Positions 7,818 to 13,031 of a DNA stretch of 64,000 bases are shown piece by piece. A program made the position numbers and the translations under genes. Each line of letters begins with the position of its first letter. Position 1 is the first letter of the stretch. The notes beneath the pieces are model-generated. The model saw nothing but the letters and a program-made list of their open reading frames with translations, did no database searches and had not been told where the DNA came from. This stretch comes from Bacteroidota bacterium (GTDB taxonomy: Bacteria; Bacteroidota; Bacteroidia; B-17B0; Aurantibacillaceae), in contig JAJNDK010000005.1 of NCBI GenBank assembly GCA_021156365.1, positions 124,001 to 188,000 of the forward strand. The letters run 5' to 3'.

Positions 7818-9065
7818 TTAGTTGATCCGGATCATCAGGCTGAGGTCTAAACCAACACCGTAAGGTTTTTGTGTAACAACGTAATTCCTGTTGAATATCG
7901 AATTGATGTTGTAATACACATTCGGGCTGGCCTGCATCTGAACACGGTCCGAGAAATTTTTAACAAGACCTACGTGTATGCCCGGAGCATACACCCATTT
8001 GCTGAGTGGCGCTCCACGATGTTGTTTTTTGAACGAAAACATATTCTGCCCTTCTGCAATAACTGTATTGGCAGATAAAAGTCTCGATGCCGAAAAGCTG
8101 ATACCGGTTTTCAGACCAACATTTTTGAACTCAAACAAGCGTGAAGCCTCCACCGAAAAATTCATGTACTTATAGGAATTGGATGCGAGCGGGGCATTGT
8201 TTGCAAAAGAAACCGGTTCGTTAACAGATCCTGCAAAAGCGGAATTGTTTCCTTTGCCTACATATTTGAAAGACTGGTATCCTGCAGCTGCCTGCACCAT
8301 CCATTTGTTTTTATATACAAAGCCCGCTTTCACGGAGGTATTGTAGCTGTATACTTTCGATTGGTTCTTCAGGTTGTTTACATAGAGGTCGGAATAATTG
8401 TTCCAGTATTGACCATCATACATGTTATGCCTGTTTGCATTTTTACTGATCTGATAATTGGACGCCTGCGGATTAAAGCCAAGACCTACATACCAGTCAA
8501 AATTTTTCTTTCCCGGCATTGTATGAGCAGCGCCTGCTGTTTCAGGAACATCCGCATTCATCGCCAGGATAATTTTCTTTTGCTCCGGCTTATTGAATGT
8601 CACGCTGTGTAATTCCATCAGCTCTGATTGAATATAAGCCATCGCAACCGGGCTTAGCTCTTTTTTCTGTTTGGACAAACTCAGCAGCGATCGTTCGAAA
8701 ACAACCGGTAACACTTTTGTCGATTCAGCCTGCTGATGAAGATGCGGCGGATAAACAGAAGATATTTTTTTCGGGGAATGTTTTGTGGAAGCCGGTTCAG
8801 GCCATTCGTTGAAATACGCCTGCTCTGTACTTTCAGCAGCAAAATTTGCACTTATCTTTTCTCCGGAGGGGCTGTAAGAAGGAGACAACAGGAAAAAAGC
8901 AGCGCCAAGGATCACACATCCCGCAAGACAGGAACTATAGAAGATCCTTTTTCTTTTTGCTTTCTGCGCAGCTCCCAATGCCTTCGCCGAAATTTCAATG
9001 GATGAAACTCCGGGCCCTGCTTCGGCAAGCTGTTCAGCTAAATGTATGTTGTTGCTTTTTGCCAT
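7818..9065 (-). CDS. Dual-membrane anti-sigma-like protein with C-terminal beta-barrel (second paralogue)
   Basis: The 415-residue protein has three parts: a cytoplasmic segment (1-40) with the sequence PGVSSIEIS and a basic AQKAKRKR stretch, one membrane helix (about 41-61), a periplasmic linker (about 62-180), and a C-terminal region of alternating aromatic/polar strands from NFDWYVGLG to the end typical of an outer-membrane barrel. The layout matches the dual-membrane-spanning anti-sigma (Dma) proteins known from Bacteroides, in which the cytoplasmic end binds an ECF sigma factor and the barrel sits in the outer membrane. It is a paralogue of the 9289-10668 product with the same N-terminal motif. 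It has its own upstream TATATTTG element, so it may be expressed separately from the sigma gene. The functional assignment is inferred. Confidence 0.8.
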   Translation of the reverse strand: MAKSNNIHLAEQLAEAGPGVSSIEISAKALGAAQKAKRKRIFYSSCLAGCVILGAAFFLLSPSYSPSGEKISANFAAESTEQAYFNEWPEPASTKHSPKKISSVYPPHLHQQAESTKVLPVVFERSLLSLSKQKKELSPVAMAYIQSELMELHSVTFNKPEQKKIILAMNADVPETAGAAHTMPGKKNFDWYVGLGFNPQASNYQISKNANRHNMYDGQYWNNYSDLYVNNLKNQSKVYSYNTSVKAGFVYKNKWMVQAAAGYQSFKYVGKGNNSAFAGSVNEPVSFANNAPLASNSYKYMNFSVEASRLFEFKNVGLKTGISFSASRLLSANTVIAEGQNMFSFKKQHRGAPLSKWVYAPGIHVGLVKNFSDRVQMQASPNVYYNINSIFNRNYVVTQKPYGVGLDLSLMIRIN

Positions 9066-9115
9066 TCCGGCGGTATGCCTGTTTTACTTTAGATGCTTCT
9101 TAACTTAATTTTACA

Positions 9116-9123
9116 CAAATATA
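9116..9123 (-). promoter_or_regulatory. -7 element for the second dual-membrane gene
   Basis: The minus strand reads TATATTTG, an exact TAnnTTTG match, 50 bases before the ATG at 9065. It lies in the 223-base gap between the two barrel paralogues and suggests an independent transcript. Confidence 0.5.
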
Positions 9124-9288
9124 CTAAAAACTCAGTTTTTCCGGTGATTGCTTACTTATCGTTGGCCGATTTTAAGCTTGCTTTCACCGATATCCCCACA
9201 GTGTTAAAAGAAGTTTTCGCCTGTTTATTGTGCATTTTAACAAAATAATCTGCATTTTGACCTTAAAAGAGGAGAAAAAAGACAAATG

Positions 9289-10668
9289 TTAATTTATCCG
9301 GATCAGCAAATTCAGATCAAACCCGACACCATAGGGTCTCTGCGCGATAAGGTATTTTTTGCCGAACATAGAGCTCAGGTTATAAAAAGCATTCGGACCT
9401 GCCTGTAGTTGAACACGGTTCCCGATATTTTTCACAACACCGATATGCGCTGAGGAGCCGAACATCCATTTGTTCAATGGTGCTCCGTTGTACCTGTGCC
9501 TGTATGTATACGCATGGTTCTCATCCACAACCAGCGTATTGGCAGCTACTAAATACGATGTCGAAAAACCGGCGCCTGTTCTGATCCCGAAGCTTTTGAA
9601 ATTGAATACCCGTGATCCTTCTACTGAAACCTGCATATGCCGGAATTCATTTTTAACAAGATTGCTTCCGCTGCTAAAGGACATAACGCTGCCACCATTT
9701 GAATTGGGAACAACCGAAGTTACTATAACGGGTGGCGGTCCCGGAGAAACGATCGTATCCACTGTGTATACGGTTTCGTAGTACTGATAATACTGGTATG
9801 CGATTGCCGCCTGAAGCATCCATTTACGTTTGTAGGCAAAACCGAATTTCAATGATGCATTATAGTTCCACACTTTGCGCAGCTCATTTTGCCGGTTGGT
9901 GGAATAAATATCTGTAAACACCGGAGCGTATTTAGCGTCACGGTTTTTATTTGACTGAATGGTATATGTTGTGAGCTGCGGATCAATTCCGGCGCCGGCA
10001 TACCAAACATAATTCTTTTGCTTTTTTGCAGGCAGGGAATCTTTCGGACTTATAAGTTCTGGCAACAATCCTGCATCTTTTAATGCAGAATCATTTTGTA
10101 CTGTAACAGGAAAAGAGATTGCTTTGTTAAGTGGCAGGCTGATCCAGACTGGTTCCGATCTACTTACCTCGTTGTTTGTTGGTATTCCTACAATCACAGA
10201 CTCACGATTTGTTGCCAATAAAACCGGGGTTGAAGCAGCGGTTGGCTGAATGCCTGCCTTTTCCGCTTTGCCGGATCCCATCTTCTTTTTCGGGCTCACA
10301 CTTACTGCCGTATTGTTTATGTTGACCTCTGCAATGCTTTGCGATTCTTTTGTCGGCACTTTACCCAAAGAGATCTCATCTCTGCTTACAGGAGCTTCTG
10401 ATGGAACAGGCTTTTGTATGTCAGAATGAAGTACGCCCGAAGCAATCGTATTGTTTGTTTTCACGGCCGGTGTAAAAAGTACAAGGCTTGAAACACCAAG
10501 TACAGCAATGCCTGCAAAGAACCAGATAAAAATTCGCTTTTTCCTTTTTTCCTTTTGGGCAGCCTCCAGTTTCTTCATGGAGATCTCAAAGGAAGAGATG
10601 CCCGGCTGTACCTCCAGGTTATCAAGCGATTGTTTGATAAACGATTCTATATGTTCTTTATTTTCCAT
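9289..10668 (-). CDS. Dual-membrane anti-sigma-like protein with C-terminal beta-barrel (first paralogue)
   Basis: The 459-residue protein has a cytoplasmic segment (1-45) containing PGISSFEIS and the basic AAQKEKRKKR stretch, a membrane helix (about 46-66), a long periplasmic linker rich in Ser, Pro and Val (about 67-215) and a C-terminal outer-membrane barrel starting near NYVWYAGAG and ending GFDLNLLIRIN. It directly follows the ECF sigma gene: the sigma stop and this start share one base (TGATG), so translation is coupled and the two products probably interact. This gene order is what is expected for a sigma/anti-sigma pair. The barrel strand pattern closely parallels that of the 7818-9065 product. 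No anti-sigma zinc motif (HxxxCxxC) is present, so it is not a canonical FecR/ZAS protein. Confidence 0.85.
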   Translation of the reverse strand: MENKEHIESFIKQSLDNLEVQPGISSFEISMKKLEAAQKEKRKKRIFIWFFAGIAVLGVSSLVLFTPAVKTNNTIASGVLHSDIQKPVPSEAPVSRDEISLGKVPTKESQSIAEVNINNTAVSVSPKKKMGSGKAEKAGIQPTAASTPVLLATNRESVIVGIPTNNEVSRSEPVWISLPLNKAISFPVTVQNDSALKDAGLLPELISPKDSLPAKKQKNYVWYAGAGIDPQLTTYTIQSNKNRDAKYAPVFTDIYSTNRQNELRKVWNYNASLKFGFAYKRKWMLQAAIAYQYYQYYETVYTVDTIVSPGPPPVIVTSVVPNSNGGSVMSFSSGSNLVKNEFRHMQVSVEGSRVFNFKSFGIRTGAGFSTSYLVAANTLVVDENHAYTYRHRYNGAPLNKWMFGSSAHIGVVKNIGNRVQLQAGPNAFYNLSSMFGKKYLIAQRPYGVGFDLNLLIRIN

Positions 10669-11219
10669 CAGGCGTATTTGTTGCCGTTATCAACCGTTTG
10701 TTTCTTTACTAATTTTATCAGAACCTGCTTTGCCCTGGAGAACTGCGAACGACTGGTACTTTCTGTTATCCCTAATTTTTCCCCGATCTCTTTGTGTGAG
10801 AATTCCTCTATCAAAAATAAGTTGATGATCGTTCTGTATCCATCCGGCAAAGAACCCAGACAGGCCATTAATTGTTTGGTGCTGATCTGTTGCTGCTCTT
10901 CTTCTGTTATATCCACATTGTCCACTATTGCCAGGTCTCTCTCAAAACGGATCCTGTTCTTTTTCTTCAAAGCTGTGAGCGCTGTATTCACTGCTATCCG
11001 TTTGGCCCAGCCTTCAAAGCTTCCTTCTCCTTTATATGATTTCAGGTTCATAAAGACTTTCACAAAAGCATCCTGCATCACATCTTCTGCTTCATCCCTG
11101 TCGGTGATATACCTTACACAAAGGCCAAGGAGCTTTGGAGCCAGATAATTGTACAGATCGGCTTGCGCACTTCGGTCATTACGCTTACATTTTTCTAATA
11201 TATCCGGCAGGTCTTTCAA
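10668..11219 (-). CDS. ECF-type RNA polymerase sigma factor (sigma-70 family)
   Basis: The 183-residue protein has the two ECF domains: region 2 at about 20-95, including the DEAEDVMQDAFVKVF core-binding helix and EGWAKRIAVNTAL, and region 4 at about 125-180 with EFSHKEIGEKLGITESTSRSQFSRAK as the helix-turn-helix that reads the -35 element. The start codon is TTG at 11219. An ATG at 11234 is out of frame and stops after four codons across a run of seven Ts, so it is not used unless slippage occurs. The downstream dual-membrane protein overlaps its stop by one base and is the likely regulator. An exact TAnnTTTG box lies 17 bases upstream. Confidence 0.95.
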   Translation of the reverse strand: MKDLPDILEKCKRNDRSAQADLYNYLAPKLLGLCVRYITDRDEAEDVMQDAFVKVFMNLKSYKGEGSFEGWAKRIAVNTALTALKKKNRIRFERDLAIVDNVDITEEEQQQISTKQLMACLGSLPDGYRTIINLFLIEEFSHKEIGEKLGITESTSRSQFSRAKQVLIKLVKKQTVDNGNKYA

Positions 11220-12041: not shown

Positions 12042-13031
12042 TTAAAGTGACAGTTTTTTAGCATACACCGGCATCTCTGTACCGCCCCACTCTACCGCTG
12101 TGAAACCACTGCGTGAGAATGCAGGCAGAACCGGCTCTTTCGTTTCCACATATGTTGCACTTGGCTGGAAAGCCATGAACACACGGATCAGGTTATCGGG
12201 TTTCGGAGAGATATGAAGCGGCGCCTTTTCGGTATAGGTTTCTCCTGCAAAATGAATGATGTTATAGGCATTGTCCTGCATTTTTGGCAACCAGAAAACG
12301 ATCATATCATTGTATTCCTTTGGTGTAAGCCCCATTTTAGGTAAGATATTTTGCAGGAATTTCCTGGTATCGCTTCCTTTTACACAATATCCTGCATTCA
12401 TATCAAAATTATAAGGTGTGGCAGGCACTCCTTCCCAGAACAGGTATTGGTATTCCTGGTTATCATCGCTATTGATAAGTGTTCCGTCGGGTTTGGCTTT
12501 TACGGTCCAGCCTTTTTTAGAGGTATTGTACTCCGGATAGGTAACAGTGAGCTTCCCGTCGTATAACAATTCCACATCTACATTGGTGGTTTTCTGCGGA
12601 TAAAGATAAATTACGGGCTTCAGGATCACTATCTGCATGGAATCAGTACGCATATTGCAGACATTGACTTTCCTTGCATAACCGGGTTGACCGAAACAAC
12701 CGCATACATATGGAACCGAATCGTTCAGCAGCTCAAATTCAAAAGCTACATTGGTTATATTGTTTTGAAAAGCGGCCGGCAGATTTTGAGGTGCCAGTAC
12801 TGCAAGCGTTGGAGATACAGGAGATGTACCGTTGCTATACACATTGAGCAGCCACAGGTTCGTGTCGGGCCAGCATCTTTCAACGGTAGCTTTTGCTGTG
12901 TGAATACATCCTTGGGATGGCGGCGGCGGCGGCGGGTCTTGTCCGCAATCGTGATCCTCTTTTTTGCAGGAAGAAATGACTACTCCGAGTAGTAATCCTG
13001 CGATGGCTAAATAGTTAAATGATGTTCTCAT
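12042..13031 (-). CDS. Lipoprotein with conserved KPVIYLYP domain, function unknown
   Basis: The 329-residue protein has a lipoprotein signal peptide with the lipobox ISSC at about residue 22, followed by a short acidic segment and a run of six prolines. From about residue 130 there is a domain beginning KPVIYLYP and ending in FTAVEWGG, a pairing I know from uncharacterised exported proteins of Bacteroidota and Firmicutes. Inside it are conserved-looking segments LFWEG and MIVFWLPKM. No catalytic function is established to my knowledge. The Pro run sits next to GGCGGCGGCG-like sequence and may be polymorphic in length. It lies upstream of the barrel gene on the same strand. Confidence 0.85.
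   Translation of the reverse strand: MRTSFNYLAIAGLLLGVVISSCKKEDHDCGQDPPPPPPSQGCIHTAKATVERCWPDTNLWLLNVYSNGTSPVSPTLAVLAPQNLPAAFQNNITNVAFEFELLNDSVPYVCGCFGQPGYARKVNVCNMRTDSMQIVILKPVIYLYPQKTTNVDVELLYDGKLTVTYPEYNTSKKGWTVKAKPDGTLINSDDNQEYQYLFWEGVPATPYNFDMNAGYCVKGSDTRKFLQNILPKMGLTPKEYNDMIVFWLPKMQDNAYNIIHFAGETYTEKAPLHISPKPDNLIRVFMAFQPSATYVETKEPVLPAFSRSGFTAVEWGGTEMPVYAKKLSL

Follow-up and report, generated by a model that had tools for sequence, protein, structure and literature searches.

The ECF sigma factor and the 459-aa protein encoded directly behind it in the window (the whole 64,000-nucleotide stretch of DNA analyzed here) very probably work together as a Dma/Reo-type switch of sigma and anti-sigma. 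Computational analysis revealed a four-part architecture and a barrel fold in the 459-aa protein, homology of this protein to the Dma2 set, a common sigma clade, and a conserved coupling of the partner gene to the sigma gene.

The sigma gene (positions 10668-11219, minus strand) begins with a TTG start codon and encodes a protein of 183 aa with matches in both Pfam and NCBIfam; in Pfam, Sigma70_r2 (58.5 bits) and Sigma70_r4_2 (51.7 bits) were both found above the cut-off. The gene of the 459-aa protein (9289-10668, minus strand) shares base 10668 with it, this base being common to the sigma stop codon TGA and the partner ATG (a 1-base overlap, TGATG). The Pfam domains and the common base confirm the original prediction that an ECF sigma gene is coupled to the gene of a barrel protein. 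An ECF sigma gene directly adjoined the homologue in all 29 loci fetched from a phylum-wide profile search, in 7 of 7 close relatives of the order, and in 24 of 24 loci fetched from the Das2 genus; because it is kept in each of these sets, the adjacency of sigma and partner is above chance. Among the 120 pairs with an ATG start, pooled over all loci, the two genes overlapped in 62 and lay within 20 bases in 95. A shared promoter motif was looked for upstream of the sigma genes and the orphan paralogue (see below) and was not found, and PADLOC gave no matches. Upstream of the sigma gene, the window also carries a gene with a KPVIYLYP stretch (12042-13031). In a further genome of the order (G018; loci L010 and L012), the sigma-Dma pair has a homologue of this gene immediately upstream, and, because it is placed alike there, the gene may belong to the same unit as the pair.

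The 459-aa protein is composed of four parts, all encoded on the minus strand. Residues 1-45 (10534-10668) make up a cytoplasmic N-terminal domain, the proposed sigma-binding part, and residues 46-66 (10471-10533) a membrane helix, seen in hydropathy as a single 19-residue hydrophobic stretch that starts at residue 46 (mean, 2.43) and in the structural model as a helix spanning residues 24-64. A disordered periplasmic tether (residues 67-216; 10021-10470) and an OmpA-type beta-barrel (residues 217-459; 9292-10020) follow. In the AlphaFold2 model, which was built on an alignment of 21 sequences, residues 66-216 had a pLDDT of <50, giving a tether of ~150 residues, and residues 219-459 formed a beta-barrel, mostly at a pLDDT of >85. 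The top Foldseek match of the barrel was OmpA (E value, 1.4e-5), and VIA-align likewise placed OmpA first (Z score, 16.8; rmsd, 2.5 over 167 residues), followed by NspA (16.4) and OmpW (14.9). The C-terminal region is thus modeled as a complete OmpA-type barrel. These results bear out the predicted C-terminal barrel, which would have been contradicted by a region that folds otherwise, as well as the single membrane helix and the linker of about 150 residues. The predicted 45-residue basic end was correct in its length before the helix and less so in its charge; with 10 K/R and 8 D/E residues (net, +2), the segment is weakly basic overall, and its basic stretch, KEKRKKR, is located at residues 39-45, beside the helix. 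Among close relatives, mean identity was highest in the N-terminal domain (34.9%), followed by the barrel (27.3%) and the tether (13.7%). Neither the 459-aa protein nor its 415-aa paralogue had a significant match in Pfam or NCBIfam, and no solved relative of the N-terminal domain was found by sequence.

For comparison with Dma2, orthologues were picked by the published operon order (das2, dma2, DUF4943, DUF4858, and a reductase-like gene; PMC13088901); two genomes with that order were identified by searching for DUF4943. Profile comparison of the N-terminal domain with hhalign matched the window set to the flavobacterial set at 99.0%, the flavobacterial set to the Bacteroidales set including Dma2 at 98.2%, the window set to this Bacteroidales set at 96.5%, and the window set to the Das2 genus only (15 proteins) at 94.9%; reversed and shuffled control profiles reached at most 7.9%. 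The barrel part matched at 96.8 to 99.3% (96.8% to the Dma2 set), with an unrelated window protein as a control at 0.2%. The N-terminal domain thus has homologous counterparts in the Dma2 set. Where the other N-terminal domains carry an invariant tryptophan, the window family has S or F. Such proteins were present in 13 of 13 searched genomes of the Das2 genus. A maximum-likelihood tree placed the window sigma in one 100/100 group with two Das2 orthologues and 41 further sigmas sampled beside such partners. Of the 18 other ECF sigmas of this genome, which, unlike the outside sigmas in the tree, were not chosen by similarity or partner, 17 fell outside the group, and the one inside has a Dma-like partner. 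Membership in the Das (ECF21) group was judged via the Das2 orthologues, which stood in for the ECF21 model.

Features of other anti-sigma types were also searched for. No FecR domain was matched in either partner protein with Pfam or NCBIfam, and the HxxxCxxC motif of zinc anti-sigmas is absent, there being no cysteine in residues 1-45, in agreement with the expectation that signaling would involve neither FecR nor a zinc anti-sigma. The proposed Dma-type design is in turn supported by the barrel fold, by the homology of the N-terminal domain and barrel to the Dma2 set, and by the 100/100 grouping of the sigmas. Since every defining feature tested here was found, sequence and fold comparisons support the identification of the 459-aa protein as a Dma/Reo-type dual-membrane-spanning anti-sigma, distant in sequence and from another Bacteroidota lineage.

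The gene order in the window is that of Dma2-Das2 (BT_1558-BT_1559) and Dma1-Das1 of Bacteroides thetaiotaomicron (PMC13088901), and the N-terminal domain, one helix, disordered tether, C-terminal barrel, and sigma clade are common to these systems and the window pair. However, the window protein is far off in sequence, its N-terminal tryptophan is replaced, the pair has no DUF4943 or DUF4858 genes behind it, and an extra, uncoupled paralogue lies alongside. NigD, the output of Dma1, was not found in this genome; Dma2 does not work through NigD1 (PMC13088901). In EcfO-Reo of Bacteroides fragilis and Phocaeicola vulgatus (PMC9308784, PMC13114119), an ECF sigma is likewise followed by its anti-sigma. 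Reo has been described as spanning from the cytoplasm to an outer-membrane barrel, and outer-membrane stress has been indicated as its signal in Phocaeicola (PMC9308784, PMC13114119). The likeness to EcfO-Reo is one of layout, the sequences compared being those of same-layout proteins of the Das2 genus rather than Reo by name. FecR-type and zinc anti-sigmas share with the window protein a gene beside an ECF sigma, a cytoplasmic segment, and one membrane helix. In contrast to them, the window protein has no FecR domain and no cysteine in its cytoplasmic segment, and, unlike FecR-type proteins, which act via a TonB receptor, it carries its own terminal barrel.

A close full-length relative was found in seven other genomes among the 87 of the window's order that were searched. 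In each case, the gene lies directly behind a sigma gene whose product is 54 to 67% identical to the window sigma, and the partner proteins are 19 to 25% identical to that of the window. The first contig scan with the 459-aa protein as the query gave no matches, and a profile search across 395 genomes from the phylum gave matches in 49. The inspected matches from beyond the class proved to be false, being HlyD-like and kinase proteins that aligned around the helix; because the weak matches at the level of the order were partly false in the same way, they are not used here to estimate prevalence. When named genomes were scanned with the sigma alignment, 80 loci were obtained, including loci from Bacteroidales, Flavobacteriales, Cytophagales, Saprospiraceae, and Chitinophagaceae, and at most of these a partner of the same kind stands behind the sigma. 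The sigma/partner pairing is spread across much of the phylum Bacteroidota. The suggestion that the locus widens the family thus holds for its occurrence outside Bacteroides and only in part for novelty, as the Dma family has already been termed Bacteroidota-specific, not Bacteroides-specific (PMC13088901). A second sigma of the same clade is encoded in the window's own genome (L181, G000:C6:48000-51500). Its partner has 481 aa, two W motifs, and a helix at residue 91, and the protein encoded upstream has PKD-like text and a C-terminal sorting-like end.

The original prediction spoke of partners in the plural. This applies to the 459-aa protein, which is coupled to the sigma; the second protein, a paralogue of 415 aa (7818-9065, minus strand), has the same architecture and no adjoining sigma of its own, and its membership follows from homology alone. 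Its gene is separated by 223 bases from that of the 459-aa protein and is thus uncoupled. The two proteins are 42% identical over the barrel part. Helix, barrel, and basic stretch are all retained in the paralogue, as are the conserved P and S of its N-terminal domain, which is four residues shorter in the region of the first helix. No comparable copy was found in the other genomes among the 87 searched of the order. Tentatively, the paralogue may be a second anti-sigma for the same sigma, such that one sigma would receive two outer-membrane inputs. Consistent with this, the P and S that it keeps are the invariant ones, its gene adjoins the sigma/459-aa pair, and the one further member of this clade identified among the genome's sigmas already has its own partner. 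On the other hand, the shortened N-terminal domain and the confinement to this genome speak against such a role; because of the latter, the paralogue may be a decaying or diverging duplicate, or it may act on another sigma. A second input to the one sigma and a diverging duplicate fit the evidence equally well.

In Spirosoma validum (L132), sigma and partner share one frame, so that they could be folded as a single chain with the stop codon read as tryptophan. The model of the sigma with the N-terminal domain had a pTM of 0.77 and pLDDT values of 90 to 97 in the N-terminal domain; it is a model of a relative rather than of the window pair, with few alignment rows over the N-terminal domain, and was run without a sigma-alone control. 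Sigma regions 2 and 4 in the model superposed on SigW (RsiW complex) and CnrH (CnrY complex) with an rmsd of 4.7 to 5.8 over ~151 residues, and the fit to SigH on RNA polymerase was at about 26 A. A fold search with the model returned matches to the sigma part alone. The sigma is modeled in the arrangement of the SigW/RsiW and CnrH/CnrY complexes and not in that seen on RNA polymerase; this matches the expectation for an inhibited sigma and is not proof of inhibition.

Partners with other C-terminal ends were found on the same N-terminal domain. Of 67 named partners, 13 contain the T9SS type B sorting domain CHU_C, and PKD_4 is present in 12. Proteins that combine a Dma-type N-terminal domain and helix with a CHU_C end and, mostly, PKD repeats (L113:5593-6888, L092:602-1912, L131:5551-6864, and L086:5506-6405) adjoin the same sigma clade as the Dma-type barrel proteins. 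A T9SS signal is odd on an inner-membrane-anchored anti-sigma-like protein, and such a protein could be a secretion monitor. Three partners of 748 to 1,098 aa (L052:665-2908, L053:1923-4295, and L049:2141-5434) contain both a VWA domain and the Plug domain of TonB receptors; two of the three carry a tail of T9SS type A, and the other ends in YfbK_C. At other loci (L094:5542-6495, L144:5522-7051, L106:5534-7048, and L133:5564-6874), the P..W..I motif of the N-terminal domain is repeated in tandem, in up to four copies before the helix, as if several sigma-binding units had been joined. Short sigma-coupled partners of ~200 to 290 aa (L037:1498-2226, L054:1861-2601, L055-L060, and L079:5529-6146) consist of the N-terminal domain and helix without a barrel; none of the three that were scanned had a Pfam match. 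In the literature searched, which did not include the founding Dma paper, no description of such sensor variants on a Dma-type N-terminal domain was found.

Taking the 459-aa protein as a Dma/Reo-type anti-sigma, we infer that its barrel senses the outer membrane and that the ECF sigma is contacted by its cytoplasmic N-terminal domain, which probably binds between sigma regions 2 and 4. The bound sigma would be kept inactive at the inner membrane, where the helix would serve as an anchor, with the disordered tether crossing the periplasm and the OmpA-type barrel inserted in the outer membrane. A change in the outer membrane, such as failed barrel assembly, damage, or a ligand, would be the signal, and it may either travel along the tether or trigger proteolysis of the tether, freeing the sigma. 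The replaced tryptophan, the lack of a shared promoter motif, and the absence of NigD weigh against this reading. Alternatively, the protein could be an anti-sigma whose barrel is a mere outer-membrane anchor, with the signal read elsewhere, for example, through stretching or proteolysis of the tether. In its favor, the tether is long and poorly conserved, and a barrel is missing from some relatives that adjoin the same sigma clade; however, the barrel is conserved far above the tether (27.3% versus 13.7% mean identity), and we consider the alternative unlikely. It is highly improbable that the helix is the signal peptide of an ordinary outer-membrane barrel that merely sits in a sigma operon, as might be suggested by a barrel protein with one hydrophobic helix close to its N terminus, because the 45-residue segment that precedes the helix is the best-conserved part of the protein, is homologous across the class, is nearly always coupled to one sigma clade, and also occurs with non-barrel ends.

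Together with these sensor variants, the Dma/Reo-type switch in the window raises the possibility, which we judge to be evenly balanced, that the Dma proteins form one branch within a broader, modular class of Bacteroidia anti-sigmas, in which a short, sometimes tandem, sigma-binding domain is combined with swappable sensors (barrel, PKD/T9SS, Plug-VWA/T9SS, or short) beside a single sigma clade, the window sigma being watched by two barrels. The tests reported here show trans-envelope anti-sigmas to be a common Bacteroidota route for coupling the state of the envelope to transcription rather than a speciality of gut Bacteroides. The alignments supply a proposed sigma-binding motif, and the natural T9SS, Plug-VWA, and barrel-less variants make C-terminal sensing testable by sensor swaps on one N-terminal domain.
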